A program made the translations under genes and the position numbers. 64,000 bases of DNA from Treponema sp. UBA3813 (GTDB taxonomy: Bacteria; Spirochaetota; Spirochaetia; Treponematales; Treponemataceae). The notes under the pieces are model-generated. The model was not told the DNA's origin, did not search any database, and worked only from the letters and a program-made list of their open reading frames with translations. Shown in pieces: positions 1,261-39,234 of this stretch; position 1 is the stretch's first letter; each line of letters begins with the position of its first letter. The stretch covers positions 97,111 to 161,110 of the forward strand of contig DFEB01000019.1 of the NCBI GenBank assembly GCA_002368605.1, given 5' to 3'.

Positions 1261-2271
1261 TTAAAATTTCAATTGGATTATTCTGTCATTCGGGCATTTT
1301 TCGAAATATTCATGCACTTTTTTTCGCGCGTCATCGTTGTCTTTTGCATTTATCATGGAAGTCTGGAAATAATGACCGAAACTGAAATTAAGGCAGTAAA
1401 AAGCAAAGAATCGCTGAAGCCGGGTTTTCCAAAATTCCTGCGGCTGAAATCTCTCCACATCATCGATAAAACGAAGAGCAAGCTCTTCCGCATCAAATGT
1501 CATTGTCGGACTTGCTCCCCCTGTCATTGTCGGGCTTGACCCGACAATCTCCCTGAAAATCCAGGGCTTTTGAGCCGCCGCCGTGGCAATCATAATGCCC
1601 TGCGCATGGGGAGCCGCTTTTTTCGCCAGCTCATAAGAATCCCGGTCTTTTACATCGCCGTTGAGAATCACAGGAATTTGAGGAAACCTGAGTGCCAAAC
1701 GCTCCACCGCCTGCCAGTCCGAGTGCCTTGAATGTTTCTGCTTTTGAGTGCGGGCATGAAGTGTAATCATCTGAACGCCTTCTTCTATTAACATGGCGCA
1801 AAATGAATGTAACTTTTCCTCAGTATATTTTTCGTCTCCCAAACGGAGTTTGACCGAAAGCCTTTTTGCCGACCTGCCGTCCTTAGCCCCGTTTTCAAGG
1901 GCCGATTTTACTGCACGAACCATAGCCTGAGTTTCTTCAATAGGCTTTAGCATCCATGCGATTCCCGCGCCGGTTTTTGCAATCTGAGGAGCCGAGCAGC
2001 CCATGTTCAAGTCAATTCCGATTCCAGACCTCTCTGCCAGAAGAGAAGCCGCCTGAGCCATTTTCTCGCCGTTTTTGTCAGTCATCTGCCAGACCAGTTT
2101 TTCAGGCTCCGGCCCTTCCAGCAAATAAAACTTCTCCCAGGCTCCACCGGCAAGCAGGGAGGAAGCGTTAATCATCTCGTTAAAATATTCGTCACAGCCG
2201 CCAAATCGCCCCACAAGATTCCTGAATGCCTGATGAGTAATGGCATCCATCGGAGCAAGAAAAAGTTTCAT
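1261..2271 (-). CDS. tRNA-dihydrouridine synthase family protein
   Basis: A 336-residue FMN-dependent TIM-barrel enzyme that reduces uridine to dihydrouridine in tRNA. The start LFLAPMDAIT is the Dus N-terminal flavin loop. NMGCSAPQIAKTGAGIAWM (89-107) contains the catalytic cysteine C92. ARTQKQKHS (173-181) and ILNGDV (202-207) are the phosphate- and flavin-binding strands. It overlaps the upstream gene by ATGA, so the two are translationally coupled, and mrp lies further upstream. Residues 241-258 are odd: the unit SSPTMT / ASPTMT is repeated and is encoded by a palindromic DNA repeat inserted in frame. The Dus subclass (A, B or C) cannot be set from the sequence. Confidence 0.9.
   Translation of the reverse strand: MKLFLAPMDAITHQAFRNLVGRFGGCDEYFNEMINASSLLAGGAWEKFYLLEGPEPEKLVWQMTDKNGEKMAQAASLLAERSGIGIDLNMGCSAPQIAKTGAGIAWMLKPIEETQAMVRAVKSALENGAKDGRSAKRLSVKLRLGDEKYTEEKLHSFCAMLIEEGVQMITLHARTQKQKHSRHSDWQAVERLALRFPQIPVILNGDVKDRDSYELAKKAAPHAQGIMIATAAAQKPWIFREIVGSSPTMTGGASPTMTFDAEELALRFIDDVERFQPQEFWKTRLQRFFAFYCLNFSFGHYFQTSMINAKDNDDARKKVHEYFEKCPNDRIIQLKF
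1498..1550. repeat. Palindromic repeat inserted in frame in dus (one full and one half copy)
   Basis: The full copy at 1522-1550 has arms ATTGTCGGG / CCCGACAAT around a CTTGA loop (TCAAG on the coding strand), with TGTC (GACA on the coding strand) flanking. A partial copy (1498-1514) lies directly next to it. The pair adds about 18 codons to the Dus reading frame without a shift. The same architecture with other stems occurs at 14801, 25349, 25493, 34488 and 37717. Confidence 0.8.
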
Positions 2272-2861
2272 TGGGTGCCACCGCCTATGGCGGTCGGGCT
2301 TTCCGCTGTTCCGCTATCCGCTTCATTGCTCCACTTCGTTCCGCAACGGCTGACGCCGCAGCTACAATCCCTGACACTTTGCTCATCTAAGAATCTTTGG
2401 AAAATTTCAGCGGCAATTCCGCATAACTCTGCACAGGGTCTTTTTTTGTAATATTCTTCAGTACGGGCTTCACTTACAGGAATATCGCTCTGTTTGGCAG
2501 CCAGGCCCAATAATTCACGGCATACGATAGAACCGTTTATCTTTCGGAATTCAGCCGCCAGTTTCTGCCCCATTGCGTAAGTCTCGTCTTTTTGAGTTTT
2601 GTCGCCGCCAAAGCCGTTGATTTTCCCGCCATTTTCCCCTTTTTTCGCATTGAACATGCCCAAAGAAAAGAGCATACCGCTCACCGTGCCACAGACTTCC
2701 CTCATGCGGCACATTCCGCCGCCAAAAGGCTGAACAAGGGCGCCAATCTGCTCCGGCGAAAAGCCAAACTTCTCGGCAAAAACCGCCGCCACCGACTGAG
2801 TACAATTCATTCCGGATTTGAAATTAGCCGTCGCCTTTTCGCGAGCCTCTTGTGGGGTCAT
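2268..2861 (-). CDS. C_GCAxxG_C_C family redox protein with repeat-derived C-terminal tail
   Basis: The first ~155 residues match the C_GCAxxG_C_C family (PF09719), small cysteine-rich proteins of anaerobes thought to act in electron transfer. Visible motifs are NCTQS, FGGGMCRMREVCGTVSGM (GGG.C...CG..sG), IVCRELLG and CAELCG. I start at the second ATG (2861; MTPQEAREK) because AAAGGAG lies 4 nt upstream; a start at 2879 has no such site. The gene lies 52 nt after mrp and overlaps dus by ATGA. The last ~35 residues (from about DCSCGVSRCG to the end) are low in family character and are encoded by a dispersed repeat (2293-2371). A paralogue at 60013 lacks this tail. Confidence 0.85.
   Translation of the reverse strand: MTPQEAREKATANFKSGMNCTQSVAAVFAEKFGFSPEQIGALVQPFGGGMCRMREVCGTVSGMLFSLGMFNAKKGENGGKINGFGGDKTQKDETYAMGQKLAAEFRKINGSIVCRELLGLAAKQSDIPVSEARTEEYYKKRPCAELCGIAAEIFQRFLDEQSVRDCSCGVSRCGTKWSNEADSGTAESPTAIGGGTQ
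2293..2371. repeat. Dispersed GC-rich repeat, family B (copy 1)
   Basis: This segment shares long blocks with 25251-25344 (reverse orientation) and 42354-42440: GGGCTTTCCGC, then GTTCCG, TTCATTGCTCC, TTCCGCAACGGC, and a GCTACAATCC end. Here it forms the 3' end of the C_GCAxxG gene, whereas the other two copies are intergenic. The spread of copies suggests a mobile or amplified element without its own gene. Confidence 0.75.
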
Positions 2862-2875
2862 AACGCTCCTTTTAA

Positions 2876-2909
2876 ACACGAATTAACACTAATTCAGTGT
2901 AATTCGTGT
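2876..2909. repeat. Intergenic inverted repeat between mrp and the C_GCAxxG gene
   Basis: The arms ACACGAATTAACACT and AGTGTAATTCGTGT are complementary apart from one extra A, around an AATTC centre. It fills most of the 52-nt gap in the operon and could form a hairpin in the transcript, either to process the mRNA or as a small dispersed palindrome. No run of U follows on either strand, so it does not look like a terminator. Confidence 0.6.
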
Positions 2910-2913
2910 CTCC

Positions 2914-3735
2914 TTACACCGCTTTTATCAAATCGACCGCCGCATCCAAAAATTCTGCATCCAGCCGCTCTACATCACCTTCATCGATTGCTTTAGAAAT
3001 ATCCTCGCTCATGGGGATTCTCGCCAGAACCGGGATTCCGTAGTCTTTTGCGATTCCGTTGATGTTGCTTTCTCCGAAGACTTTGATTTCTTCGTTACAG
3101 TGAGGACATTTTACATAGCTCATGTTTTCCACAAGGCCTACAATCGGCACTTTCATCATGTTTGCCATTTTTACGGCCTTTTCCACAATCACGCGGACAA
3201 GCTGCTGGGGAGAAGAGACGACGATAATTCCGTCAATAGGAAGGGACTGAAAAACCGTGAGGGGAACATCGCCAGTTCCGGGAGGCATATCCACAAACAT
3301 ATAATCGACATCGTTCCAGACAACATCCGTCCAGAACTGTTTGACCGCGCCCGCAATTACAGGACCGCGCCACAAAACAGGGTCGGTCTCTTTTTCGAGG
3401 AGAAAATTCATGCTCATAAGCTGGATGCCAGATTCCGTTTTGACAGGATAAATCGCACCAGACTTGTCACCCATAGCTTTCTGATCAGCAACGCCAAAAC
3501 TTGTCGGGATTGAAGGGCCCGTAATGTCAGCATCCAGAACAGCTGTTTTAAATCCGTTTTTCTTCATTTTTGAAGCCAGCAAAGCCGTCACGAGGGATTT
3601 TCCAACGCCGCCCTTTCCAGAAACAATTCCGATTACCTTTTTGACACAACTTCCCTCGCGGAGAGTCGCCCGCAAGTCCTTGGATTTACAATTTGAGCCG
3701 CAGCTTGAGCAATCGTGCGTGCATCCTTCAGCCAT
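2914..3735 (-). CDS. Mrp/NBP35 family iron-sulfur cluster carrier ATPase
   Basis: A 273-residue ParA-fold ATPase of the Mrp/ApbC/NBP35 group, which carries [4Fe-4S] clusters to apo-proteins in the cytoplasm. It has an N-terminal cysteine-rich stretch (C5, C9, C12, C16) as in NBP35, a deviant Walker A GKGGVGKS (40-47), the DADITGPS switch (67-74), VDMPPGTGD (148-155), and the cluster-binding pair C209-x-x-C212 (VKCPHC). AGAGG lies before the ATG. It is the first gene of the mrp / C_GCAxxG / dus operon, which puts a cluster carrier upstream of a cysteine-rich redox protein. Family assignment is firm; the client proteins are not known. Confidence 0.93.
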   Translation of the reverse strand: MAEGCTHDCSSCGSNCKSKDLRATLREGSCVKKVIGIVSGKGGVGKSLVTALLASKMKKNGFKTAVLDADITGPSIPTSFGVADQKAMGDKSGAIYPVKTESGIQLMSMNFLLEKETDPVLWRGPVIAGAVKQFWTDVVWNDVDYMFVDMPPGTGDVPLTVFQSLPIDGIIVVSSPQQLVRVIVEKAVKMANMMKVPIVGLVENMSYVKCPHCNEEIKVFGESNINGIAKDYGIPVLARIPMSEDISKAIDEGDVERLDAEFLDAAVDLIKAV

Positions 3736-3858
3736 TTTAATACCTCTTTAGTTTATCGGGACAAATCCGATAATGCAGATTCTTTTCTTTTATAAAGATA
3801 ATTAAACATCCGTGTTTTGACAAGAATTTTTGCAGTCAACTGTCTTTTTGCCAGCTCC

Positions 3859-3895
3859 TTGTGGCAGTTTTTTCGGATTATGTTATAATTTCAAT
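3859..3895 (+). promoter_or_regulatory. Promoter with -10 six nt before the ATG (leaderless)
   Basis: TATAAT at 3884-3889 is followed by TTCAAT and then the ATG at 3896, so transcription should start at or near the start codon. No purine-rich ribosome site lies in that gap. A weak -35 (TTGTGG) lies about 17 nt upstream. The same layout recurs at 12720, 15813, 18407, 36500 and 39242. Confidence 0.65.
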
Positions 3896-5047
3896 ATGAA
3901 ACAAAATCGTTACATCGCCGCCATCATCGGCACAGGCAGAATCGGATTCTCGCTGGGATTTGACAAAAAAAGGGAGCAGCCCGCAAGCCACACAATGGCA
4001 CTTTTAGGCAACAAGCGAATCAATCTTATTGCCGCCGCCGAATCGAACAAAGAGAATCTTGAAAACTGGCGTAAATATGTCCGAAAGCATAACGGCAAAA
4101 AAGATTTCACGCTCGTTTTTCCGACAAGCAAGGAACTCTACGAAAATGTCACCTGCCTGGATATAATCACGGTGGCGGTAAACGAAGACAACCATCTCCA
4201 AGAATGTATCAGGGCCATTGAATATAAGCCCAAACTGGTGATTCTGGAAAAGCCGGTCGCCCTCAACTCAGAAGAAGCCGAAAAAATCCGCGACAAGGCC
4301 AAAGAATGTGGAGTGCCCGTCATGGTAAACCACGAACGGCGATTTGCAAAAGACTATCTTTCGGTAGTCAAAATGATAGGGCAAATCGGAGACATCCAAT
4401 CGGTAGTAGGAGAGCTGGACTCTGGCCTGCGTATTTATGGCGAGGAATTTGAAAAAGACGGAACTTATTCGCTCTTGCACGACGGAACCCATTTGGTGGA
4501 CATAATTCAGTTTTTGCTAGGAGGGAATCTCGCCAAAGATGATAAAACTAACGACCGTTCGGAAGAAAATAAGGAATTTTCCGGCAAAGAGGCAGATTCA
4601 GCTTCAAGCAAAGAAAGTCCTTGCCAAATCCTGAAAAATCCTCTCGTCACAGGCGTTTTTAAGGACGAAAAAGGAATCGTGCGGAATTTTTCCGCTCATT
4701 ACCAATCGGTAGTCACTTCTTTCGGAACAATCCCTGAAGTCACAATCAAAATGAGCGGCCGCAGTAAATTCTTTGAATTCAGAATCGAAATTTTGGGCAC
4801 GCTAGGTAAAATCTGCATCGGAAACGGCTTCGCCGAGCTTTTTCTCCGCAAGGAATCAAAACTCTACACGGGCTTTTACTCCCTCACCAAACAAAAACTC
4901 AAGCTGCCCAAAAAGACCGGCTACTTTTCAGGCATGATTCAAAACGCGGTGGATTTTCTGGACGGTCAAAGCGAGCTTGTCTCGCCGCTTGAAGATGCAA
5001 TCAGCGATTTGCGAGCTCTGGAGGAGATTAAGGCTGGGCTAAAGTAA
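3896..5047 (+). CDS. Gfo/Idh/MocA family oxidoreductase
   Basis: An NAD(P)-dependent sugar or cyclitol dehydrogenase-type protein of 383 residues from the chosen start. The Rossmann loop is AAIIGTGRIGFSLG at the N-terminus, the family lysine sits in ILEKPVALNSEEAE, and VMVNHERRF and DGTHLVDIIQF follow as in the catalytic domain. I start at 3896 (MKQNRYIAAI) rather than 3830 because the consensus -10 TATAAT lies six nt before this ATG and the 22 residues before it show no conserved character. Between the substrate-domain strands is a charged, serine-rich insertion (about residues 210-238) unlike the family. Substrate unknown; neighbours do not help. Confidence 0.85.
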   Translation: MKQNRYIAAIIGTGRIGFSLGFDKKREQPASHTMALLGNKRINLIAAAESNKENLENWRKYVRKHNGKKDFTLVFPTSKELYENVTCLDIITVAVNEDNHLQECIRAIEYKPKLVILEKPVALNSEEAEKIRDKAKECGVPVMVNHERRFAKDYLSVVKMIGQIGDIQSVVGELDSGLRIYGEEFEKDGTYSLLHDGTHLVDIIQFLLGGNLAKDDKTNDRSEENKEFSGKEADSASSKESPCQILKNPLVTGVFKDEKGIVRNFSAHYQSVVTSFGTIPEVTIKMSGRSKFFEFRIEILGTLGKICIGNGFAELFLRKESKLYTGFYSLTKQKLKLPKKTGYFSGMIQNAVDFLDGQSELVSPLEDAISDLRALEEIKAGLK

Positions 5048-5056
5048 AATTACTGG

Positions 5057-5863
5057 CTAGTCCGCAAATTTTCCGGCTTTCGTCTGGTTCGCTGCAGCTT
5101 TAAGCATTTTGAACCGCTCCATTGTCCTTTCCAGAGACTTGCGGGCGATTTTCATTGCATCTACCAGAGCCTGGTCACAGGCTTCACGAAGTTCCTTGGG
5201 ATAAAAGGCACCGTCTTTTTTCAACGGGCACTTTACAGGAAGATAAATCCAGTTTTCATATTCGCTTTCTCTGATTTGCAATGCATTAAATCCAGAAAGG
5301 TCTTCGGCATCGAGGGGATTTTCTGTGTTCACGCTGATTGAAAAAGCATATTCGGGATGATTTTTTTCAAAATTCGGCACAAAACCGATAAAAAAGAGCA
5401 TATCAATCTGGCTTTCCCAAAAGTACCGACCGGTTCCATATTCAGAATTCTGCCCCGCCCCTTTGATAAAAAATGAATCGTCGAGAGTCTCAAGGTAAGC
5501 GGAGCAAAAATCAAGGATTTCTTTTTGTTTTGTGTCAGGCTCACTGCTGCCAAAACGAAAGGGAACGCCGTCAAAAGCAGTCTCTTCATTTTTTGGGGAT
5601 TCAGCCGCCGCACTGCCAAAATCAGGACGGGGCAAGTCCAAAGTCGTAGCATCGTCTCTGAAGACATCAAGGGAAACATTCAGGGCATCTGCAAGGGCAA
5701 GAAGGTGAAATGAATCTGGGGTGCGCGAGCCTTTTTCCCATGTGCGAATCGCATCATCGCTCACGCCAAGAATCTCGGCAAACTGCGAGCGTTTCAGCCC
5801 GCGCATTTTCCGCAAAACCGCAATTTTTTTATGTATACTTAATGATTCCATAATCTGCTCCAT
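5057..5863 (-). CDS. XRE-family HTH transcriptional regulator with C-terminal domain of unknown function
   Basis: Residues ~10-65 form a Cro/C1-type helix-turn-helix (RKMRGLKRSQFAEILGVS, then DAIRTWEKGSRTPD). The remaining ~190 residues, including ENWIYLPVKCPLKKDG and a basic C-terminal helix (ARKSLERTMERFK), match nothing I recognise. Two starts compete: ATG at 5863, eight nt after a GATAAT -10, and ATG at 5851, which has GGAG seven nt upstream. The promoter belongs to a three-member set shared with the nuclease operon and the InlB-type lipoprotein, so this protein is a candidate controller of that set. DNA binding is likely; targets are inferred. Confidence 0.8.
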   Translation of the reverse strand: MEQIMESLSIHKKIAVLRKMRGLKRSQFAEILGVSDDAIRTWEKGSRTPDSFHLLALADALNVSLDVFRDDATTLDLPRPDFGSAAAESPKNEETAFDGVPFRFGSSEPDTKQKEILDFCSAYLETLDDSFFIKGAGQNSEYGTGRYFWESQIDMLFFIGFVPNFEKNHPEYAFSISVNTENPLDAEDLSGFNALQIRESEYENWIYLPVKCPLKKDGAFYPKELREACDQALVDAMKIARKSLERTMERFKMLKAAANQTKAGKFAD

Positions 5864-5869
5864 GTGCAA

Positions 5870-5914
5870 AAATTATCGCACAATTCGGCAGCAGAAAAAA
5901 GTGACACTTGTCGG
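5870..5914 (-). promoter_or_regulatory. Shared promoter/operator, copy 1 (XRE regulator)
   Basis: Read on the minus strand: CCGACAAGTGTCACTT, 15 nt, then TTGTGCGATAATTT. GATAAT (5872-5877) serves as an extended -10 and GACA-AG-TGTC is a small dyad upstream. The same two blocks with the same 15-nt gap occur at 8135-8180 and 11596-11640. Confidence 0.7.
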
Positions 5915-5963
5915 TTTTTCGAACTGACAATTTCTTTCTGCCGCTGCTACGAATACAAAGTTT

Positions 5964-6473
5964 TTACTTTACTTCAACACAGCAACAACCTAAAAGCCTT
6001 GTCATAAGGTGGTCATCAATAAAATCGAAGCCTTGAATTGGCCTGTCGCTGGTAAAAACAAGCTGCCCCGACTTCCTATGAATCTCATCGAAAATGTAAA
6101 GAATTTCTTCCTGCAAGATTTTGCTTTTTTCAAGAAATTGAATGTCATCGAGGAGAAGGATATCAAGACTACGATATTTTTTCCGAAAGTTATCGAAAGT
6201 CTGCTCCCGGAGAGAGTCCGTAAATTCATTCATCAAAGATTCCGTCGTCGTATAAAAAATTTTTACTTCCGGATAGCTTGACTGAATATAATTTCCGATT
6301 GCATTTATCAAATGCGTTTTTCCTGAACCTGTCTGCCCGTAAAAAAGAATCGGACAGAAACGCTCGTTTTGGGGATTTTGTGCAAATTTTAAAGCAGTAT
6401 CATAGGCAATTTCATTATTGCCTGATTCAAAATTCTCAAATGTAAAATCTTTATAAAATATACAATCTTTCAC
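5964..6473 (-). CDS. DnaA-like AAA+ ATPase, truncated (no DNA-binding domain)
   Basis: 169 residues that align with the AAA+ core of the replication initiator DnaA only: YKDFTFENFESGNNEIAYD opens domain III, Walker A is GQTGSGKT (46-53), Walker B is ILLLDD (105-110) followed by IQFLEKSK, and sensor I is VFTSDRP (139-145). DnaA is normally ~450 residues; the N-terminal oligomerisation domain, the arginine-finger SRF box, the lid and the DnaA-box-binding domain IV are all missing, and the protein ends LLGCCCVEVK. The start codon is GTG with AAAGGAG upstream. It is the third gene of the 8100-5964 unit. It may be a regulator like Hda, a DnaA decoy, or a decaying paralogue. Confidence 0.75.
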   Translation of the reverse strand: MKDCIFYKDFTFENFESGNNEIAYDTALKFAQNPQNERFCPILFYGQTGSGKTHLINAIGNYIQSSYPEVKIFYTTTESLMNEFTDSLREQTFDNFRKKYRSLDILLLDDIQFLEKSKILQEEILYIFDEIHRKSGQLVFTSDRPIQGFDFIDDHLMTRLLGCCCVEVK

Positions 6474-12732: not shown

Positions 12733-14970
12733 ATGAATATTCTGATTCTCCAGCCGCCAATAGTTCAGCTGAACACGGCTTACCCCAGCGGTGCCTATCT
12801 CTCTGCCTTTTTCAAGTCTCTCGGTCACAAGACCCGCTGGCTCGATTTAAGCCTTGAGCTTTACTACGAGATTTTTTCCCGTGCGGGGCTGACCAGGCTT
12901 TTTTCCCTCTGCTCAGAAAACGCCCTTAAACTTGCGGACAAGGCGGAGCAAGCTGGAGATGAGGCGACGGCCTTTAACTTACGCCGTTATGTCGCACAAA
13001 AGGATTTATGGATTAACTGGATTGATTTTATCACGGCGATTTTGCGTCCGGGCAAGCACGATTCCTTTTCTTCGGGCTACGAGAATGCCCACCGCTTTGT
13101 CTTTGGTGCCCATGTTCCCCGCGGCTCTCGAATGGAAAATTACCTCGCAAATCTTACCCACGATTTGACCACCGACGATGCCCGCTCTCTGGCCAGTTTT
13201 GCCCTTGCCGACCTTGCGGATTTTATCGCCGTAGCCTTTGACAAGAATTTTTCTCTGGTGCGCTATGCCGAAAGCCTTACCGTAAGCGAGTCCAGTTTTT
13301 CGGAGGTCGAAAAAGGAGCGGATTCCCCGATTCTAAAAGAGTTTTATGAGCCATTGTTGCAGCGATTTTTTATGAAAGGGGAAAGTCTTCCCCTCGCTAC
13401 AGCCGCTTTCGCGTCTTCCGCTACCCCTTCTGCGGGGGAATCCCCCGCAACACCCCCAAAAACTCTCGTCCTTATTTCAATTCCTTTTGCGGGAACATTT
13501 GCGGCCGCCCTTGCCACCGGGCGATTTTTCAAAAATCATTTTAAAGATTCAGTCTATGTCAGCTTCGGCGGCGGCTTCGTGAACACGGAATTACGAGATA
13601 CAAACGAACGAAAGTTAGTTGATTATTGTGACGCGATTTGCTATGACAGAGGCTACGCTTCCTACAGACAATTGTTAATGCAAAATGCTGACTGCATAAT
13701 TAAAGATAAACCTATTTACAAACTCCGGCAGTTTATCAGACTAACGAGCGGTAGCACATCTATCATCGAGCCGCTTTCCGACGAGTCTTCCGAAGAATAC
13801 AAACGAGCGTTAGCTTACGAAAGAGAAATCACCTCTTCTTTAATTCCAGATTTTTCGGACATCGATTTTTCCCAATATCCTCGGCTTATTGACGACACGA
13901 ATCCCATGCACAGGCTCTGGTCTGACGGCAGCTGGATTAAGGCTTACATGGCTCACGGCTGCTACTGGCACAAGTGTGCCTTCTGCGATGTCACTCTGGA
14001 TTATGTAAAAGGATATTGCCCAACGAACGTTAGTAAGTTATATGAAGGTTTACTAGCCCAGTGCAAGGAAAAGGGCATTTATGGAATCCACTTTGTTGAT
14101 GAAGCCATGCCTCCTGCCATGATGATTGCCTTTGCCAGGGAGAACATCGCCCACGGCTCGCCAATTACCTGGTGGGGAAACGTGCGCTTTGAAAAATCCT
14201 TTACCCGCGATGTGGCGGACTTCCTCGCTTACGGCGGCTTAATCGGAGTCTCGGCCGGGCTTGAATCTGCCACAGGAAACGGCCTAAATGCCATCCATAA
14301 AGGAACGGATCTGGAATCAATCGTTGGAGCCTGCTGTGCCTTCAAGGAAGCGGGCATTCTCGTCCATGCCTACATGATTTACGGCTACTGGTGGGAAAAG
14401 CCGGAAGATTTAATCAACTCCATGGAAACCCTGCGCCAGTTCTACGCCAACGGCCTGCTCGATTCCTGCTTCTGGCACAAATTCGTCCTCACCCGCCATT
14501 CCCGCGTCTACAAAGAATGGACCGAAGGCAAAATCCCCGATTTAAAGCCCATCGACCCCCAGGAAAAACAGAACGCCCCTCTTTTTGCCAAAAACGGACT
14601 TCACTTCGAGGGCGAGAAAAAGAGCGAGAAATACGGAGCCGCCCTGGATTTTTCCCTCAACCAATGGATGCACGGCGAAGGTCTGGAAAAGCCTGTTCAA
14701 AAATGGTTTGATTTTTCAGTTCCTCACCCGACCGTGCCAAAAAACTTCATCGAAAATCTGATTGCCAAATACGAAGCAAAACGGGATCAAGAATTCAAAG
14801 AGATTCCCGCGTCAAATCACGGGAATGACAAATCTTACTGGCTGGGCGGCGAAAAAATCCCCCTGAGTGACGGCAAAATCGGCTGGTTCTACATGGGCGA
14901 ATTCCACACGGCCAAAAAAAATGCCCCGGAATCAGCTTTCCGAGGCAAAGGATTGTGTATTTTACCGTAA
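12733..14970 (+). CDS. B12-binding-type radical SAM protein
   Basis: 745 residues. The N-terminus (MNILILQPPIVQLNTAYPSGA) matches cobalamin-binding-type domains of radical SAM enzymes, and VYVSFGGGFVNTELRD gives the later Rossmann strand. The 4Fe-4S cluster motif is C410-x4-C415-x2-C418 (HGCYWHKCAFCDVTLDY), with four rather than the usual three residues in the first gap. GIHFVDEAMPP and VSAGLESATGNGL are further barrel strands. Two stretches are foreign: residues ~218-245, encoded by a GC-rich repeat also found inside the ABC-F gene at 57 kb, and ~690-700, encoded by a palindromic repeat. Its 3' end overlaps the convergent gene by 9 nt. Reaction unknown. Confidence 0.85.
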   Translation: MNILILQPPIVQLNTAYPSGAYLSAFFKSLGHKTRWLDLSLELYYEIFSRAGLTRLFSLCSENALKLADKAEQAGDEATAFNLRRYVAQKDLWINWIDFITAILRPGKHDSFSSGYENAHRFVFGAHVPRGSRMENYLANLTHDLTTDDARSLASFALADLADFIAVAFDKNFSLVRYAESLTVSESSFSEVEKGADSPILKEFYEPLLQRFFMKGESLPLATAAFASSATPSAGESPATPPKTLVLISIPFAGTFAAALATGRFFKNHFKDSVYVSFGGGFVNTELRDTNERKLVDYCDAICYDRGYASYRQLLMQNADCIIKDKPIYKLRQFIRLTSGSTSIIEPLSDESSEEYKRALAYEREITSSLIPDFSDIDFSQYPRLIDDTNPMHRLWSDGSWIKAYMAHGCYWHKCAFCDVTLDYVKGYCPTNVSKLYEGLLAQCKEKGIYGIHFVDEAMPPAMMIAFARENIAHGSPITWWGNVRFEKSFTRDVADFLAYGGLIGVSAGLESATGNGLNAIHKGTDLESIVGACCAFKEAGILVHAYMIYGYWWEKPEDLINSMETLRQFYANGLLDSCFWHKFVLTRHSRVYKEWTEGKIPDLKPIDPQEKQNAPLFAKNGLHFEGEKKSEKYGAALDFSLNQWMHGEGLEKPVQKWFDFSVPHPTVPKNFIENLIAKYEAKRDQEFKEIPASNHGNDKSYWLGGEKIPLSDGKIGWFYMGEFHTAKKNAPESAFRGKGLCILP
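13384..13466. repeat. Dispersed GC-rich repeat, family C, in frame in the radical SAM gene
   Basis: Shares CCCCTCGCTACA, then TTCCGCTACCCC and TCTGCGGGG, in the same order with 57215-57294. Here it is read as an Ala/Ser/Pro/Thr-rich stretch (FASSATPSAGESPATPP). The other copy is read from the opposite strand. Confidence 0.75.
14801..14830. repeat. Palindromic repeat in frame in the radical SAM gene
   Basis: AGATTCCCG, then CGTCAAATC, then ACGGGAATGACA: an imperfect hairpin with arms ATTCCCG / CGGGAAT, a TCAAA centre and the ATGACA tail typical of this repeat family. It adds EIPASNHGND to the protein. Confidence 0.65.
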
Positions 14971-25250: not shown

Positions 25251-25344
25251 TGCGTTAAGGATTGTAGGGGCGGCGAAGCCGTTGCGGAACATAGTGGAGC
25301 AATGGAGCCGTGAGGCGGAACCCCGAAAAGCCTGACCCGAAGCG
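25251..25344. repeat. Dispersed GC-rich repeat, family B (copy 2, reversed)
   Basis: Reverse-complement similarity to 42354-42440 along its whole length: TGCG(T/C)TAAGGATTGTAG at one end, TTGCGGAAC and GGAGCAATG inside, and AAGCCTGACCCGAAG at the other end. Copy 1 (2293-2371) aligns to the same blocks. Confidence 0.75.
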
Positions 25345-25348: not shown

Positions 25349-25376
25349 GATTGCCGTGTCTCGCACGGCAATGACA
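25349..25376. repeat. Palindromic repeat with covarying stem
   Basis: GATTGCCGTG-TCTCG-CACGGCAATGACA: same GATT ... AATGACA frame as the copies in dus and hrpB but with a different, still perfect stem. A further hairpin (GGTAACGCC / GGCGTTACC) follows at about 25385-25413. Confidence 0.75.
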
Positions 25377-25492: not shown

Positions 25493-25518
25493 GATGCCGA
25501 ATCAAGTTCGGCATGACA
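25493..25518. repeat. Palindromic repeat just upstream of htpG
   Basis: GATGCCGAA-TCAAG-TTCGGCATGACA, a perfect hairpin ending 18 nt before the htpG ATG, in its probable leader. The same stem recurs at 34488-34512 with an ATAAA loop. Confidence 0.75.
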
Positions 25519-28938: not shown

Positions 28939-30327
28939 ATGGTAAATAATCACAGGATTGACATCAACCTTTCTGAAAAGGGTTTTTTTATTGACGGACA
29001 AAGACTTAACATGCTTAATTACCGATTTCATGAAATCCTCAATCGGAGCGGCATGTCGCATATTGGAAACAAGAAAAAATCTGCTCCTGATTCAAACTGT
29101 GCTATTTTCTATGTCTATCACTCTGACGCCATGGCCTATATCAGCCTGATGGACATTTGGTTCACGCCGGATGAATCTCCTATAACTCAAAAAGATTTTG
29201 ACAGGCTTGAAAAATTCTACGAGGAGACTGACTCAAGATTCAATGAGCAGAATTACAAATATAAGCTTTCCGCAAAGATAAATCTGGATATTCTCGAAAA
29301 AATCGGGCGAGGCGAAGAATTTACCATTCCCACAGGCATTGACGAAACGACCTACACAGCAGCCTTTTATTCTCCGTCAAAGACAGGGCTTTATTGCTTC
29401 CATTTGGATATCAATCCAATTTTTACTGAAGAATTTTGGGAAAGTGACAAATACAAGACAGAAGCCAGGCTTTTTGAGTCTGTAAACAACGGAGACTTGG
29501 AGAAAATTAAACTTTATGCAAAAAAAGGGGCGAATTTAAAATTCCATGCAAAATACACGCTTGCATCTTTACTTGATATTGCCATCGTTAACAACAATCC
29601 TCAAATGTGCGAATTTTTGATTAGACAGGGGCTGGATGTGAATTACACAAACGGTTACGGGCCTGATTTTTCTTCATTAAATCTTGCCAAATCGGAAAAA
29701 GCACTGGAAGCAGGGAAAGTTCTTGTGAAATACGGGGCAAGATATGATTTGTTTAACCTTATCGAGGCAGGCACATTCTCCTCTGAGGACTGTAATCGCT
29801 TGTATATGGAAGAACTTGAATTTCTTCTGCAATGCGGCTCAGATGCCAACAAGGGCTTGAAAAACAATCTCTTTACCCCTCTCATGTGGGCGGTCTTTAA
29901 CAATAATATTCAGGCGGCGGAACTTCTGATTAAGTACGGAGCGGACATAAATGCAAAGACAATTTCTGATGGGACAGCCCTTCGCATAGCCGTTTTAAAT
30001 AATAATGTCAAAATGGCTTCATTTCTGATTGAGCATGGTGCAGAGGTGAATTCAATAACTGACGGCAAAAGCAACTTGCTTGAGGCTCTTATACAGCAAA
30101 ATCCGGACAGGGAGATGATTTCTCTTTTATCCCTCTGTGGCGGAAAGATAAACGCAAGCTTGCCGGTACCTGTTGAAGTATATAACAAAAAACTAAATGT
30201 GACTTTCGTGATAAAAGAAGCCTTCGTCCCTTATTTTCTAAAAGAAGATGAAGAAGCCCTTCTGTTTTTGTGGAAATTATTTTTGCTCTGTGACACAGCC
30301 ATTCCCGTGCATTGGGAACGGGTATGA
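28939..30327 (+). CDS. Ankyrin-repeat protein
   Basis: 462 residues. The first ~175 residues form an unrecognised domain. Ankyrin repeats follow from about residue 180: EARLFESVNNGDLEKIKLYAKKGANL, TLASLLDIAIVNNNPQMCEFLIRQGLDVNY, FTPLMWAVFNNNIQAAELLIKYGADINA, GTALRIAVLNNNVKMASFLIEHGAEVN. No signal peptide is present, so it should be cytoplasmic. CGGGAG lies six nt before the ATG. The last residues (TAIPVHWERV) are encoded by a palindromic repeat, so the original C-terminus has probably been replaced. An ankyrin remnant also lies at 33.9 kb. Confidence 0.85.
   Translation: MVNNHRIDINLSEKGFFIDGQRLNMLNYRFHEILNRSGMSHIGNKKKSAPDSNCAIFYVYHSDAMAYISLMDIWFTPDESPITQKDFDRLEKFYEETDSRFNEQNYKYKLSAKINLDILEKIGRGEEFTIPTGIDETTYTAAFYSPSKTGLYCFHLDINPIFTEEFWESDKYKTEARLFESVNNGDLEKIKLYAKKGANLKFHAKYTLASLLDIAIVNNNPQMCEFLIRQGLDVNYTNGYGPDFSSLNLAKSEKALEAGKVLVKYGARYDLFNLIEAGTFSSEDCNRLYMEELEFLLQCGSDANKGLKNNLFTPLMWAVFNNNIQAAELLIKYGADINAKTISDGTALRIAVLNNNVKMASFLIEHGAEVNSITDGKSNLLEALIQQNPDREMISLLSLCGGKINASLPVPVEVYNKKLNVTFVIKEAFVPYFLKEDEEALLFLWKLFLLCDTAIPVHWERV
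30300..30319. repeat. ATTCCC palindrome, copy 2 (end of ankyrin gene)
   Basis: CATTCCCGTGCATTGGGAAC overlaps the last codons of the ankyrin gene and supplies its stop region. Confidence 0.6.
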
Positions 30328-32653: not shown

Positions 32654-32666
32654 TTTGGAGTAGAAC

Positions 32667-34200: not shown

Positions 34201-34252
34201 TAAAGCATTGTGAAATGTTTTTATGTTATTTAATACGAACATGGGCGTATAA

Positions 34253-34366
34253 CACGGCGTACCTAAAATTGTCGGTGCGTATGGACGTGACGCAATCAGA
34301 ATTGAAAAGAATTTCATTATTGTGACGATTCCATTCAACAGAATTAATGCAGTTTTTTTGAGCTAA
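34253..34366 (+). pseudogene. Fragment of an AlbA_2 / RecG-like putative DNA-binding protein
   Basis: A 37-codon frame bounded by stops reads HGVPKIVGAYGRDAIRIE then FIIVTIPFNR. The order GVPKI...YG..AI.IE....IVTIPF is the end of the ATPase-like part in AlbA_2 (AAA_4/Schlafen-type) proteins. The helix-turn-helix that should follow is missing here, and a piece of just that kind lies on the other strand at 36571. Confidence 0.55.
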
Positions 34367-34487
34367 ATGACTACTGACAAATCAAAGCAACAGTAAAATT
34401 ATAAACTGACTGCTTATCCTCATCCCCCTAACACAATCAATGTCACCCTGCCCCGCATGACATTCTTTTTGATTCCGTAAAAATCTA

Positions 34488-34512
34488 GATGCCGAAATAA
34501 ATTCGGCATGAC
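34488..34512. repeat. Palindromic repeat (same stem as upstream of htpG)
   Basis: GATGCCGAA-ATAAA-TTCGGCATGACGG. Confidence 0.7.
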
Positions 34513-34522
34513 GGCACAGACT

Positions 34523-34543
34523 TCATTCCCGTGCCTTGGGAAT
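34523..34543. repeat. ATTCCC palindrome, copy 3
   Basis: TCATTCCCGTGCC-TTGGGAAT, eleven nt after the previous palindrome and about 70 nt before the 34615 gene. Confidence 0.65.
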
Positions 34544-34614
34544 AAACCTCCGTTAAACTCACTCCCGTAAATTGCAGGGCTTCCCCGCCCTTCCCGCACT
34601 TTCAGGAGGTTTTC

Positions 34615-35628
34615 ATGAAAAAACTCATCGCAGTCTTCTTTGCCCTGGCTTTTCTTACTGCGGCCATTTTTGCGCAGACGGCAAAACCAAAAATCTCACC
34701 TCGCACTAATACGCACACTAATACTCGCATTAACGAAATGATTATCGCGACGATTATCGAGGCTCAGGAAAATGTCTATGACTATGACGGTGACGGCCAG
34801 ATTAATTGCCTTGACTATTCCTGTGTCTTCAAACTGACTTGGGACAAGAATTTTCCCCGGGAAAAATACCGTTGCAGTCTCGTGAGGAACTATCAGCCGG
34901 ATGTGATGAATCATCTTTTTGCCCAGGTTCAAGATGAAAAATTCCGCAATATCGAGATTGAGACCTGGACAGACAATCCCTATCACTATCTTCTGACAGA
35001 AATCTGGCCGACTGACAGATACAATCCGGCTTTCAATCGTTACGGCGAAACTGAACGCTGGCTTTCGGAGGGAAATAGGTCGCTAAAGCCAAAAAAGGCC
35101 GAAGTCAGGATTGCAAAATCATATTCTTCTGGCTCATCAGGCTCTTATTTTCATGATTACTCTTCATTCAGCGCGTCCGACACAGGATATTTTTCTGTGG
35201 GCTATACGACAAGCATTTTTTCACCGAATTCCGGAAAATCCGGCAAATCCTCTTTCATAAACTCTCAAAAATTCGGAATCGAAGTCTCCACCGAAACGGC
35301 TTTCCGCTATGGTGAGCGATTCGCGGTCCTTGTTTTTGATTATCTTCTTGACCACACGGAAGAAAAATCCGCCGATTCATGGCTTTTGGGATTTGACTGG
35401 GGCTACTGTTTGATTTCATTTTTCCAGCCATATTTTGGCCTTTCAGCCGGAATGAAGTGGCAGGACTCTTTTTCTTGGGAAAATCTCGGCTTTGCATGGA
35501 AAGTCAGCAACGGTTTCAGGTGCAGTTTTTCATCAATCAGCTTGCGGGCAGAAGTCTCCTATGGCACGATTCTGGGACTCGCGGGAACAGTGGCGGCGGG
35601 ATTTTCCTTGAAAGAAGCACAAAGATAA
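34615..35628 (+). CDS. Exported protein with a dockerin-like calcium loop and probable beta-barrel
   Basis: 337 residues with a signal peptide (1-20, AAIFAQ). Residues ~54-70 (YDYDGDGQINCLDYSCV) form one EF-hand-like loop of the dockerin kind (D.D.DG.iN..D). The C-terminal half is built of amphipathic strands ending in aromatic residues (AFRYGERFAVLVFDYLL; LLGFDWGYCLISFFQPYFGLSAGM; SLRAEVSYGTILGLAGTVAAGFSL), consistent with an outer-membrane barrel. TCAGGAGG precedes the ATG. A single dockerin repeat is not enough for cohesin binding, so calcium may only be structural. Function unknown. Confidence 0.7.
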   Translation: MKKLIAVFFALAFLTAAIFAQTAKPKISPRTNTHTNTRINEMIIATIIEAQENVYDYDGDGQINCLDYSCVFKLTWDKNFPREKYRCSLVRNYQPDVMNHLFAQVQDEKFRNIEIETWTDNPYHYLLTEIWPTDRYNPAFNRYGETERWLSEGNRSLKPKKAEVRIAKSYSSGSSGSYFHDYSSFSASDTGYFSVGYTTSIFSPNSGKSGKSSFINSQKFGIEVSTETAFRYGERFAVLVFDYLLDHTEEKSADSWLLGFDWGYCLISFFQPYFGLSAGMKWQDSFSWENLGFAWKVSNGFRCSFSSISLRAEVSYGTILGLAGTVAAGFSLKEAQR

Positions 35629-35688
35629 ATGAAGAAATCTGGAAAGAAACAGGAAAATCATTTCTGCGGGAAGAAAAGTAAGCATTGC

Positions 35689-36099
35689 TCAAATCAATTT
35701 TTCTATCTCGCTGGCAAAATTCCTAAAATCATCCAAATGGCTGGTTATGATTGCGTAGATGATTTTGCAGTCAAGATTTTCATATTGATGAACGGCGATA
35801 TTCCGGAAACCTACCGCGCGACTTAAATTATCAGCCACAGACTGAGGAATCAGTTTGTTTTGGGCAAGCTTTCGGAAAGTCTCTGCCATTGTCGCCGGAG
35901 TTTCAGTGTCATAATCAAGAAGAATATGATTTCCGATATCAACGCAAATCTGAACAGCCCTCTGCAAGTTCAGAATTATAATATCCTGCTTGTCTATGTT
36001 TTTTTCCAAATCTTCAAGGCTCAAAATCCCCTGACTTTTGACACGGTGGACGCAACGGATGAGAGCCGCAATCTTTGCTTCAAGGACTTCTTTATCCAT
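35689..36099 (-). CDS. hepT: HepT-like ribonuclease toxin
   Basis: 136 residues, all helical, HEPN fold. The catalytic R-x4-H-x-Y motif is intact (R99, H104, Y106 in RNIAVHQY). In the HepT/MntA (type VII) system this RNase is silenced when the partner nucleotidyltransferase adds AMP to the tyrosine. It overlaps the partner gene by eight nt and follows it, the usual order for the MntA-first arrangement. The ending (DDFRNFASEIEKLI) is complete. Confidence 0.9.
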   Translation of the reverse strand: MDKEVLEAKIAALIRCVHRVKSQGILSLEDLEKNIDKQDIIILNLQRAVQICVDIGNHILLDYDTETPATMAETFRKLAQNKLIPQSVADNLSRAVGFRNIAVHQYENLDCKIIYAIITSHLDDFRNFASEIEKLI

Positions 36100-36493
36100 T
36101 TATAAACCTCTTTATTTTTTGCCTGTTCATGTATTCAATCGTAGGAAGAAAATCTTCTTTAAAACAAAGAGCTTTTGTCAGATAAGGGACAAAAATGCTT
36201 TTTGAAATCTTGATTTTTATGCCTGTCGTCATAATCTGATAAAGAAAAATACCTTCTGCCTGAGATAAATCCGCAAGGTCGATTTCCCGCTTGCAAAGAA
36301 GAGCTAAATCGCACTGGATTTTTGAAAGCTCCTCATAGCCGAGGGAATTCTTAGAATGAAGGGCAATGTCGATGTCACTGTGGGAATTAAAAGTGCCTTT
36401 AGCAAAGGAGCCGAACAATAAGACGGTATCTATTTCATCTTTTTGAGAAAAATAATCCTGAATTTTTTGCTTTACCTGCTCCGCTTCATTCAT
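36092..36493 (-). CDS. mntA: MntA-like nucleotidyltransferase antitoxin
   Basis: 133 residues. The polymerase-beta-type motif G28-S29-x10-D40-x-D42 (GSFAKGTFNSHSDIDIAL) is complete, and the basic C-terminus (EYMNRQKIKRFING) is typical. It should transfer AMP to the HepT tyrosine and so neutralise it. The ATG lies six nt after TACAAT, so the module is probably transcribed as a leaderless mRNA. Confidence 0.9.
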   Translation of the reverse strand: MNEAEQVKQKIQDYFSQKDEIDTVLLFGSFAKGTFNSHSDIDIALHSKNSLGYEELSKIQCDLALLCKREIDLADLSQAEGIFLYQIMTTGIKIKISKSIFVPYLTKALCFKEDFLPTIEYMNRQKIKRFING

Positions 36494-36510
36494 GGATTTA
36501 TTGTAGCATA
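36494..36510 (-). promoter_or_regulatory. Extended -10 directly before mntA (leaderless)
   Basis: On the minus strand TGCTACAAT (-10 TACAAT at 36500-36505), AAATCC, ATG. Confidence 0.6.
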
Positions 36511-36570
36511 AAAAATCAATCAGATAAATATTTTTATTTTTTCAAAAGTCGACTGAAAAGAACGACAGAT

Positions 36571-36690
36571 TTATTTTACAATCCACCTGCCATCTTTCTT
36601 GCTTCCAATTCGTTCTATAAGATTTCGTTCCTGCAAATCCCTAAAAGATTCGCGATTGTTGTTGCCAGAATATTCCAAGCCCCCACGGCG
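36571..36690 (-). pseudogene. Winged-helix C-terminal fragment of an AlbA_2-type protein
   Basis: A minus-strand frame ending TAA at 36571 reads EYSGNNNRESFRDLQERNLIERIGSKKDGRWIVK in two stretches (key parts: RESFRDLQERNLIERIG and GRWIVK). This is the last winged helix of Fic- or AlbA_2-type proteins. Upstream the frame degenerates near CGGAGCCGC. It complements the fragment at 34253 but lies in opposite orientation. Confidence 0.5.
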
Positions 36691-36720
36691 GAGCCGCAAA
36701 ATACTACAAAGAAAAGGGAA

Positions 36721-39234
36721 TTATTCAGTAAGCACCCGATAATCCCACTTGTGCTTGGGGTAGCGGCCTTTCATTTCCTTGCAGATTTCAAGCCATGCCC
36801 CAGTCCAGAAATTTTCCAGGTCGTCCGTAATTTGAAGGGGGCGGCTTGCGGGAGACAGAAGTTTCAAAAGGACGGGAATGCCAAGAATCCTTGGAGTTTC
36901 AAAGCAACCGAAAATCTGCTGAATTATGGTTTCCAGCGTGGGCTGTATGCTTCCGTCCGCTTTTTTTTCATAGACGATTTTTCGCTTCCGTCCGTTAGCC
37001 AAAGTGATTTGCAAGGGAACTTTTTCATCAATTTTGCTTCCATCAAGATACCAATAAAGAGCGTCATAAATATCCTGAGCGTTGATTTTTTGTGACTTAA
37101 CGAACGGTCGTAACCATTCCTGTGCATTTTGAGCCAGAGAATCAAACTTTTTCTGTAATTCTGATACTGAAACAAGCCCTGTTTGACCATTTTGAGGCTG
37201 TTTTTTGATATAAAATTCCACCCTGAGCAAAAAATTCTCAATTTTACTATCGAGCGGTAGGGATTTTAAGCCTTTTTTTGCCACGAGGTCACAAAGTGCC
37301 AACGCAAAATCCTCACTTTCAGCAGGCATTTTCTTTTCTTTCAGGACAATGGCGCCATAAGAGAGAATTTCCTTTTTCTGAACAGAAAGATTCTTAAAAT
37401 CGCTTCCATTCGTTAGTTCAACAAATTCCGTTTTGATTTGACTTTTTGCGTGCTTTTTCAAAAAGACTTCTGCCTGCCCGTCACTTATCGCCTCAAATGA
37501 ATAGATTTTTCCAGTTCTCTCACCAGCGTCAACTTCCGGAGCGACAAGCCAGGTCGGAAAGCTGGGAATCCGTGCCTGAGACAGAAGCTCCCGGTTAAGC
37601 CAGGCCTTTCGCCCGCTGGGAAACTGGTATTCGCCGCGATCAGCGTTTGGCTGAGTCTCCGGGGAAAGGCTGGCAAGTCGGTCGGGATAGCCGTCGAGAA
37701 CAAAACTTTCACTGTCTGTCGTTGTCGCCATTGCTTTGCCCCGACAATCTCTTAATCGCCTCTTCAAGTCATCTACGAAAATTTTCTGCCGCTCAGGGCT
37801 GGCTTGAGCATATTCGGAATAAGGCAGAACGGCTTCCGCGCCTCCAGCCAAAGCCACGCAAGCCAGTCTAGGATGCAGTCCAAGGCGAAGGACGGCTTTT
37901 CCTTTTTCAGTGATTTTTGCCGACCTTCCTTTTGAGTCTTCGTGAAATTCTATGCAGTCCAGTTTTTCTAGCAAATCGCTGGCGACATTCCATGCAGAAA
38001 GTGACGGCGGAGTAAGCCAGTCCAGCTTTTCGACTTCACCAGCTCCCCACTGGGCACATTCAAGCACAAGACCTGTCAAATCAGCCCGCAAAATTTCCGG
38101 GGGATTTTGCTCCACCCGCGCGTCATGCTCGCTCCACAGGCGGACGCATCTTCCCGCCGCCAAACGACCAGCCCGACCAGCCCTTTGTGCTGCACTGAAA
38201 AGGCTTTCATTTTCGGTCACGAGATGTTCCATTCCCAAAGCGACATTCATTTTATTGACCCGGCATAAGCCTGAATCAATGACCAGCGTGACGCCTGGCA
38301 CCGTAAGAGAAGTTTCCGCAATGGCAGAAGAAAGAATCACACGGCGGGAAGAATCCGATGAACAAGGGCGAAGAACCTTTCGCTGCTCGGAAACCGGCAC
38401 AGAAGAATGTAAAATCAGAATTTCGCAGTCAAAATCTACTTCCGAAAGGTAGTTTTCAAGCTCAGATTTTGTCTTTTTGATTTCAGAGATTCCAGGCAAG
38501 AACGCCAGAATCGTGTCGCATCTTTGATTATCTATATAACTATCGTTAGTTTTATTTGCTTCTTTCTTGCGTCCATGCTGAGAATCTTTCCCCAATTCTT
38601 CAAAAATCGCCCTGGCTACGCTTACATTCGGCTTATATTCAATCTCAACCGGGAACTGTCTTCCCGGAATCTGCATAACTGGAGCAGGATTTTCTTTACT
38701 CCCCAAATACTCAGCTATCGAGCGGTAGTCTATAGTCGCACTCATAACGATAACGAACAAATCATCCCGAAGAAGCATAGTCTCTTTTAAGAAAGCAAGC
38801 GCCAAATCAGAATGAATCGACCGCTCGTGAAACTCGTCCAGCACAATCACATTCACATCTTCAAGGAGAGGATCCGCCTGAAGCCGGCGAGTCAAAATCG
38901 CCTCGGTAATCACTTCAAGCCGCGTTTTTTCCGAAACTTTTGAATCAAGATGAAGCCTGTAGCCAACAGTTCCGCCAGTTTCCTCACCCAGCAAATCCGA
39001 AAGCCTGTCCGCAATCGCACTTGCAGCAAGGCGACGAGGCTCCAGCATAAGGATTTTTCCCTCAAAATGCTCCAGCAAGGCAATCGGTACGGCAGTAGAT
39101 TTTCCGGCAGCAGTCTCAGCGGTCAGCACGAGAAAGCGGGATTCTGAAGATTTGAGAGAAGAGCAGATTTCTGGCAGAAAAGGCGAAATCGGGAGAGAAG
39201 AAAGTTTTTCGTAAGCGCGGGAAAATTCAGGCAT
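36721..39234 (-). CDS. hrpB: ATP-dependent helicase HrpB
   Basis: 837 residues, DEAH-box helicase of the HrpA/HrpB group. Motifs: AETAAGKSTAVP (I), VLDEFHERSIHSDL (II), MSATID (III), ILAFLPGISEI, ILHSSVP and SAQRAGRAGRLAAGRCVRLW (VI), followed by the HrpB-specific C-terminal domain. HrpB is thought to act on structured RNA, but its exact role is unclear. A palindromic DNA repeat is inserted in frame at ~495-507 (CRGKAMATTTD), in a variable part of the protein. The ATG lies seven nt after TATACT, so the gene is likely leaderless. Confidence 0.9.
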   Translation of the reverse strand: MPEFSRAYEKLSSLPISPFLPEICSSLKSSESRFLVLTAETAAGKSTAVPIALLEHFEGKILMLEPRRLAASAIADRLSDLLGEETGGTVGYRLHLDSKVSEKTRLEVITEAILTRRLQADPLLEDVNVIVLDEFHERSIHSDLALAFLKETMLLRDDLFVIVMSATIDYRSIAEYLGSKENPAPVMQIPGRQFPVEIEYKPNVSVARAIFEELGKDSQHGRKKEANKTNDSYIDNQRCDTILAFLPGISEIKKTKSELENYLSEVDFDCEILILHSSVPVSEQRKVLRPCSSDSSRRVILSSAIAETSLTVPGVTLVIDSGLCRVNKMNVALGMEHLVTENESLFSAAQRAGRAGRLAAGRCVRLWSEHDARVEQNPPEILRADLTGLVLECAQWGAGEVEKLDWLTPPSLSAWNVASDLLEKLDCIEFHEDSKGRSAKITEKGKAVLRLGLHPRLACVALAGGAEAVLPYSEYAQASPERQKIFVDDLKRRLRDCRGKAMATTTDSESFVLDGYPDRLASLSPETQPNADRGEYQFPSGRKAWLNRELLSQARIPSFPTWLVAPEVDAGERTGKIYSFEAISDGQAEVFLKKHAKSQIKTEFVELTNGSDFKNLSVQKKEILSYGAIVLKEKKMPAESEDFALALCDLVAKKGLKSLPLDSKIENFLLRVEFYIKKQPQNGQTGLVSVSELQKKFDSLAQNAQEWLRPFVKSQKINAQDIYDALYWYLDGSKIDEKVPLQITLANGRKRKIVYEKKADGSIQPTLETIIQQIFGCFETPRILGIPVLLKLLSPASRPLQITDDLENFWTGAWLEICKEMKGRYPKHKWDYRVLTE
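37717..37750. repeat. Palindromic repeat in frame in hrpB
   Basis: On the coding strand: GATTGTCGGGGCAAAGC then AATGGCGACAACGACA, an imperfect relative of the dus copy (GATTGTCGGG-TCAAG-CCCGACAATGACA). It is read in another frame than in dus, giving different amino acids from the same repeat. Confidence 0.6.

Follow-up and report, generated by a model that had tools for sequence, protein, structure and literature searches.

Palindromic units of 26–30 nt within conserved genes of a Treponema genome: a likely CGTC-type REP family

Introduction

Why do several conserved genes of one Treponema genome carry short palindromes that are read through without breaking the gene? We address this question in Treponema sp. 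UBA3813, starting from a stretch of 64,000 nucleotides (assembly GCA_002368605.1, contig DFEB01000019.1, forward strand, positions 97,111 to 161,110), hereafter the window, to which coordinates refer. The original prediction, made from these letters alone, held that six copies of one palindromic family with covarying stems lie here, three of them in dus, hrpB and a radical SAM gene, and that the family resembles the Rickettsia palindromic elements (RPEs). The likely explanation, in our judgement, is a family of repetitive extragenic palindromes (REPs) of the CGTC type: short, non-autonomous mobile DNA hairpins that would be copied as folded units. Because its tag, stem, loop, genic copies and absent transposase all agree with that superfamily, we file the Treponema family as an additional member, working like RPEs.

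CGTC REPs were described by Di Nocera et al. in 2013 (PMC3733652); statements on that paper refer throughout to the parts of it used here. The superfamily as defined there includes RPE-4, RPE-6 and the neisserial dRS3, spans five phyla, Spirochaetes among them, and apparently comes without a dedicated transposase. The words Treponema and Dehalococcoid do not occur in the main text, as far as those parts go. Among titles and abstracts of the open-licence PMC literature, we found none that describes the present Treponema family.

Results

Structure of the element and copies in the window

Read on the strand that carries the tag, the consensus unit consists of TGTC, the arm ATTGTCGGG, the loop CTTGA, the arm CCCGACAAT and a final C, so that 9 bp of stem enclose a loop of 5 nt. 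In a second, shorter class the stem measures 8 bp (TGTC, ATGCCGAA, CTTGA, TTCGGCAT, C), and units range from 26 to 30 nt. Copies in the window were scored with a covariance model, R1, and are given below with the genes concerned. The sister species used for comparison is Treponema sp. RGIG4455, a metagenome-assembled genome (MAG) from roe deer omasum that was reached via locus L035 and is the closest named relative of the window. ORF stands for open reading frame.

1522..1549, minus strand: REP, 28 nt consensus copy, in dus, read EIVGSSPTMT; orthologous in the sister with a decayed stem (48.7 bits, E 1.4e-10)
1498..1521, minus strand: 24 nt head-to-tail part-copy (TGTCATTGTCGGACTTGCTCCCCC on the plus strand) abutting the tag of the 1522 copy; not in the original prediction; missing in the sister
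14802..14830, plus strand: REP, 29 nt, in the radical SAM gene, read EIPASNHGND; common to the sister (E 1.1e-6)
13737..13738, no strand: site without insert in the radical SAM gene, filled in the sister by a 30 nt in-frame REP
25349..25376, plus strand: REP, 28 nt, intergenic, adjoining another dispersed repeat (E 2.2e-8)
25493..25518, plus strand: REP with an 8 bp stem (26 nt class), a short way upstream of htpG (E 6.6e-8)
34488..34513, plus strand: REP, 26 nt class, spanned by no ORF of at least 60 aa (E 3.5e-5)
3751..3777, plus strand: degenerate REP, not in the original prediction, spanned by no ORF of at least 60 aa (E 0.001)
37717..37749, minus strand: possible old, decayed REP in hrpB (16.9 bits, E 0.046)
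1261..2271, minus strand: dus (tRNA dihydrouridine synthase) with insert
12733..14970, plus strand: radical SAM gene with insert; no Pfam match
36721..39234, minus strand: hrpB-type helicase gene

Five of the six copies first proposed are clear (E 1e-10 to 4e-5); the sixth, in hrpB, matches as an outer stem with a long loop and is degenerate and doubtful. The copy placed at 14801 is real, and the model starts it at 14802. It had also been claimed that the genic copies are read in different frames. Those in dus and the radical SAM gene share a codon phase, and only the hrpB match is read in another. The E-values within the window are favoured by construction, because R1 was built from 14 distinct copies that include these same five. 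A model-free scan demanding a perfect stem nevertheless recovered four of the five clear copies, against 0 or 1 match in each of ten shuffles. At gathering thresholds, Rfam reported only a tRNA in the window and no family at the REP copies. In NCBIfam, the radical SAM gene weakly resembles PhpK and further radical SAM proteins of the B12 type. The dispersed repeat next to the 25349 copy is a separate one of about 90 bp (25252-25344), lying directly before it and present in many copies in the sister genome.

Copies across the genome

The genome-wide covariance-model search gave about 47 copies (R1, E<=0.1) in the 2.60 Mb of UBA3813. R1 scoring covered 150 of 1843 first-look candidates and returned 58 matches, from which 11 were removed: hrpB, two weak matches and eight that read an already counted palindrome from its opposite strand. 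A pattern search allowing three or fewer mismatches to the 28-mer found 17 places, four of them identical to it; the reversed-pattern control found none. Most copies are 28 nt long (33), eight are of the 26 nt class and six are of other lengths. The tag is TGTC in 34, CGTC in 7, AGTC in 3, and TGTT, TGCC and TGCA in one each, counts that are no independent test since R1 itself contains the tag. AT follows at tag length in 45 of the 47 copies, which fits the stem start of CGTC REPs.

Units often occur in close pairs. Among 118 listed loci, selected for the exact 28-mer, well-formed units lying within 120 bp of each other were head-to-head (HH) in 38 cases, tail-to-tail (TT) in 48 and head-to-tail in three. 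Part-copies are a further feature: in 8 of the 47 copies (six of them genic, including those in dus, hisH and a methylase gene) the tag is preceded, at a distance of exactly 24 nt, by TGTC or CGTC, and no other offset from 10 to 59 exceeds three copies. carA has a similar 24 nt stretch starting with TGTT. The offset signal is wider, about 18 to 31, among the 118 loci. Head-to-tail neighbours that have shrunk would explain these part-copies.

Copies inside conserved genes

Of the 47 copies, 21 are inside open frames of at least 195 aa, 18 frames in all, and 26 lie outside frames of that length. Pfam (E<=0.001) assigns a family to sixteen of the 18, the Sir2 match being below the cut-off; the two without a match are a 195 aa frame and the radical SAM gene of the window. 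The genes include dus, carA (two sites), oligopeptidase F, glutamate synthase, a DNA gyrase B-family protein, a UvrD-type helicase, a tetrapyrrole methylase, an FAD protein, an EcoEI-R-type restriction subunit, thiamin pyrophosphokinase, an esterase, a periplasmic binding protein and Sir2. A class-I glutamine amidotransferase with an inverted REP pair was taken for hisH, a Radical_SAM_N/DUF3362 protein is presumably ygiQ, and an MgsA-like frame has two copies beyond its known domains. Eleven of the genic copies are read in sense and ten in antisense, in several phases.

In carA, the insert interrupts the glutamine amidotransferase domain. Among 24 other genomes with a match, 21 loci could be aligned, the remaining three being weak matches to a paralogue-like protein; nothing stands at the insert place in 19 of the 21, G015 has a different insert there and G014 about 10 residues. 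In dus, the insert lies in a loop whose length varies among relatives. For that reason the alignment alone does not prove an insertion there; the proof is the exact 28-mer.

Comparison with a sister species

About 35.5 kb of the window (summed by hand) aligns with the sister at 72-97% nucleotide identity, mostly to one contig. Units common to both species are those in dus, at 14802 in the radical SAM gene, in the hisH pair, at carA site 2 and in ygiQ, together with the hrpB palindrome, which in the sister is equally degenerate and length-variable. At other sites the two species differ by entire units, which occur singly or as inverted pairs. Only UBA3813 has carA site 1 (63 nt), the dus part-copy (24 nt) and probably the esterase copy, where the sister is shorter and diverged. 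The copy upstream of htpG is likewise missing at that place in the sister, whose upstream region has diverged. Conversely, some units belong to the sister alone. One is the 30 nt in-frame unit opposite 13738, where the window shows a clean empty site; the same gene, radical SAM, has another, inverted one that adds 39 nt. An additional copy of 48 nt lies in the sister's ygiQ, where UBA3813 retains the scar GATTGTCGG of 9 nt, and a further, intergenic one lies opposite 17605. All five copy-related length differences within genes (24, 30, 39, 48 and 63 nt) are multiples of three. Empty sites, which the original prediction had proposed to look for, are found in the radical SAM gene and in carA. 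No alignment to the sister was obtained for the copies at 25349, 3751 and 34488, and gltB fell outside the comparison.

Another species pair, L057/L076, shows a whole-unit difference within a dimer: one of its halves belongs to another subtype in L057 than in L076, while the second half is in agreement, as are most of the flanks (93-96% identical). Between UBA3813 and the sister, the radical SAM gene also differs by 3 and by 91 nt, neither being REP, and the sister frame is open throughout. In carA, the sister is additionally shorter next to site 2. The 91 nt difference, at 13441 (sister contig C11, about 29065-29165), lies in a palindrome-rich stretch, and both frames are open.

Covariation of the arms

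For the covariation analysis, copies were chosen by their loop and 3' end, and those whose 5' arm starts with ATT were then kept: 11 of 15 distinct sequences in UBA3813 loci (4 excluded) and 29 of 40 in loci with the exact 28-mer (11 excluded). In either set, pairing of the inner six positions is 0.879; with shuffled arms the means are 0.592 and 0.588, and the highest of 2000 shuffles reached 0.773 and 0.707, respectively. The covarying stems noted at the outset are therefore real. Units that combine one arm from each of two subtypes also exist.

Orthologous sites behave differently from this. At the genic sites shared by UBA3813 and the sister, few in number and with pairs counted by hand, no two-arm change was found. 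The dus stem has 6 of 9 pairs left in the sister, and that of the radical SAM gene has 8 of 9 in UBA3813 and 9 of 9 in the sister. carA site 2 shows one-sided changes in both genomes, ygiQ differs only in the loop, and the hisH units are identical. That arms covary between copies and decay one-sidedly at orthologous sites argues that pairing belongs to the stage of copying, and not to upkeep in place. We read this as pairing that would be imposed when a unit is copied and then eroded by drift in genes, on the basis of a few, mostly genic, sites. As for the two possibilities first put forward, selection on a hairpin or copying through one, these sites favour copying.

Distribution among genomes

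Within the genus, matches (E<=0.01) range from 0 to at least 127 over 36 genomes including UBA3813, with none in six and at least 127 in three. In relatives, 127 candidates per genome were scored under stricter filters, so that a count of 127 is a lower bound; UBA3813 yields 42 there in place of 47. Of 23 genomes that belong to other genera of the order, 22 gave no match and the last only one (E 0.003).

Across the genome collection, at least 118 stretches contain the exact 28-mer. Eighty loci among the matches listed have titles: 67 are from Treponema or other spirochaetes, nine from Dehalococcoidia or Dehalococcoidales, two from Rickettsiales (both MAG contigs with the exact 28-mer), one from Paceibacterota and one from Oribacterium. 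In these loci, A precedes GATT (tail CT..) in 68 of 72 spirochaete copies, and TG precedes it in 11 of 13 copies from other phyla (tail C.A, mostly CCAG with the C of the stem). The Oribacterium copy may come from a misbinned contig, since it has the spirochaete base context. A named species, Treponema bryantii NK4A124, carries the element (L066, L084). Carriage by phages was dropped as an idea, as the exact 28-mer has 0 matches in viral_contigs. In L049 (Dehalococcoidia) and L122, which are homologous loci, a GATACCAGCC palindrome is also seen, and in L122 its loop has extra palindromic sequence.

A subtype carried in a transposon-like unit

One subtype, GATTTTCGGGTCAAGCCCGAAAATGACA, is placed differently. 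It lies inside a unit with inverted ends GGGGCTGTCCAATAAGT (or the variant GGGGATGACC), of the kind known as a miniature inverted-repeat transposable element (MITE), where it mostly forms an HH pair together with a different subtype, along with a conserved spacer. Such units were seen at six places in UBA3813 (with both ends at four) and at seven of the ten sister places fetched for this subtype (loci L007, L008, L012 and L016 in UBA3813; L293-L299 in the sister). In 11 two-ended units, the 12 nt inner ends used in the scan are 89-165 bp apart, with seven at 111. In a viral contig (L310), the same 17 nt end adjoins a frame that has a DUF772 and a DDE transposase domain, a domain pair that we take to be IS1182. 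So this subtype appears to have been captured by a MITE, or to move as one.

Discussion

Relation to known palindromic repeats

Di Nocera et al. (PMC3733652) give CGTC-2 a stem of 8 bp and CGTC-3/4 one of 9 bp, each with a loop of 5 nt, and these families are like the present element in tag, stem length, AT start and loop. CGTC REPs also have in common with it matched-arm subtypes, intragenic copies, no linked transposase and spirochaete hosts. Differences exist as well. The CGTC REP tail is CCA, which fits the non-spirochaete copies better than the spirochaete ones, in which C is mostly followed by T or C (AATCTCT, AATCTCC). TT pairs are rare and HH pairs predominate among CGTC REPs, whereas TT pairs here equal or exceed HH pairs. 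Unlike CGTC REPs, nearly half of the copies here lie in sizeable ORFs, and one subtype resides in a MITE. dRS3 belongs to CGTC-1, with an 8 bp stem, a 4 nt loop and, in Neisseria, mostly large clusters, in contrast to the single units and pairs seen here. The proposed likeness to Rickettsia elements holds up, in that RPE-4 and RPE-6 are CGTC REPs according to the same paper and the tag, stem and loop features of that superfamily recur here. With RPE-4, RPE-6 and RPE-1, the element shares its in-frame presence in unrelated conserved genes; however, RPEs are about 150 bp long (PMC10969869, in the part used here), and the present host is a spirochaete.

Alternative explanations

Ordinary protein loops with chance palindromes, perfected by template switching at quasi-palindromes, would suit the length-variable dus loop and the poor hrpB palindrome. 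As an account of the family this is barely credible and we regard it as refuted: the identical 28-mer at four places, with 17 within three mismatches against none in the control, the empty sites in the sister and in most carA relatives, and the same 28-mer in distant phyla all speak against it, as does a genome holding far more than a few copies. For hrpB taken alone it may still hold. Functional RNA hairpins, acting as terminators or mRNA stabilisers under selection for pairing, would account for covarying arms and for the 26 copies outside long frames, yet this too is very unlikely in view of the 21 copies inside such frames, the one-arm changes at orthologous genic sites, the six Treponema genomes with no match and the lack of Rfam matches at gathering score in the window.

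The remaining alternatives concern the agent of spread. REPs and REP doublets (REPINs) can be mobilised by a genome-encoded REP-associated tyrosine transposase (RAYT, a Y1 HUH enzyme), and GTAG REPs of this type share with the present family inverted doublets of short, tagged hairpins. Matches to PF01797 (Y1_Tnp) do exist in 8 of the 36 Treponema genomes, one of them below the curated cut-off, but these eight have only 0-37 element matches. In 59 genomes searched, UBA3813 included, the family was absent from UBA3813 itself and from all nine Treponema genomes (drafts) with more than 50 matches. The contrast between high- and low-copy genomes is not significant alone (Fisher p 0.16). Given these absences from UBA3813 and the nine highest-copy genomes, and a tag that is TGTC or CGTC and not GTAG, we reject RAYT as the mobiliser; that it acts here is highly improbable. 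IS110-family recombinases that amplify the elements or home to them fare slightly better and are still a poor prospect. PF01548 scores above cut-off in 7 of the 9 genomes that hold over 50 element matches and in 4 of the 27 that hold fewer (Fisher p 0.001), and an element (E<0.01) lies within about 300 bp of an IS110 frame in 4 of 13 loci (L277, L280, L283, L287), in one case 29 nt past the frame end. But there is none in UBA3813, with its 42-47 copies, nor in G001, which has at least 127 matches and is 97% complete in 6 contigs, and genome size also tracks copy number (Spearman 0.56). The IS110 proteins are of several types, to judge from their clearly different starting sequences. The association is statistical, confounded and not universal. 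Spread of all copies as parts of IS1182-like DDE-transposon MITEs, finally, draws on the GATTTTCGGG subtype in its unit with 17 nt inverted ends and on the same end beside the DDE transposase frame of L310. It has next to no chance of being general, as MITE ends were found at only six listed places in UBA3813 (45 nt of left flank examined) and were not seen at dus, carA, hisH, peptidase, radical SAM and other copies. MITE carriage in this genome is already limited to one subtype. A carrier gene flanked by the elements was rejected as well, since among the 118 loci no gene recurs between two copies.

A model for copying

For a CGTC-type REP family, the following model can be proposed. The unit, with its TGTC or CGTC tag, a stem of 8-9 bp starting with AT and a loop of about 5 nt, would be copied while folded, either single-stranded or as a cruciform. 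A trans-acting enzyme would read hairpin and tag, which would account for the matching arms in each copied subtype. This enzyme would presumably be neither a Y1 (RAYT) transposase nor, as a general rule, IS110. One subtype may instead be carried inside the MITE of a DDE transposon, and copies may be removed by short-homology deletions, of which one case was seen: the nine-base scar in ygiQ makes the UBA3813 state look like a deletion between short CGG repeats. Within genes, units occur on either strand and in several open frames, with length differences in multiples of three and stem changes in one arm.

Several points weigh against this model. We infer the copying step, as no enzyme was found for it. 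The nine ORFs flanked by copies on both sides among the 118 listed loci include no two that are homologous. At 13738 in the radical SAM gene and at carA site 1, which are the two clean empty sites, we see no duplication of the target. carA has 21 extra residues, about 10 of which come from the full unit. The copies in the gyrase-family and thiamin pyrophosphokinase genes lie within the first 3% of the frame, so that these two of the 21 may sit ahead of the actual gene start. Some of the differences between species may be losses and not gains: the state in ygiQ looks like one, and those at 14830 in the radical SAM gene and at dus 1498 could have arisen either way. The orthologous sites compared are few, and the genomes are drafts.

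A broader and distinctly more tentative idea is that CGTC REPs are copied by an undescribed hairpin-reading machinery, common to or exchanged among Spirochaetota, Chloroflexota, Rickettsiales and Paceibacterota, that may write whole 26-30 nt units without target duplication and so steadily feed in-frame inserts of 8-20 residues into conserved enzymes. As it stands, short mobile hairpins lengthen conserved enzymes outside Rickettsia. The 2013 description of CGTC REPs came with no mobilising enzyme, and rumen Treponema offer a tractable case: the range from 0 to at least 127 matches within the genus, gains and losses in conserved genes of sister species and a named host species make the question of the mover testable.

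Other features of the region

Two further observations come from the comparison with the sister. Positions 35844-36639 are 97% identical to sister contig C23, while the neighbouring stretches match C11 at 72-95%; this segment is possibly mobile or recently transferred. Opposite 3750-3880, sister contig C11 (L234) has extra sequence that, by eye, resembles a cassette of an antitoxin and a PIN-domain toxin.

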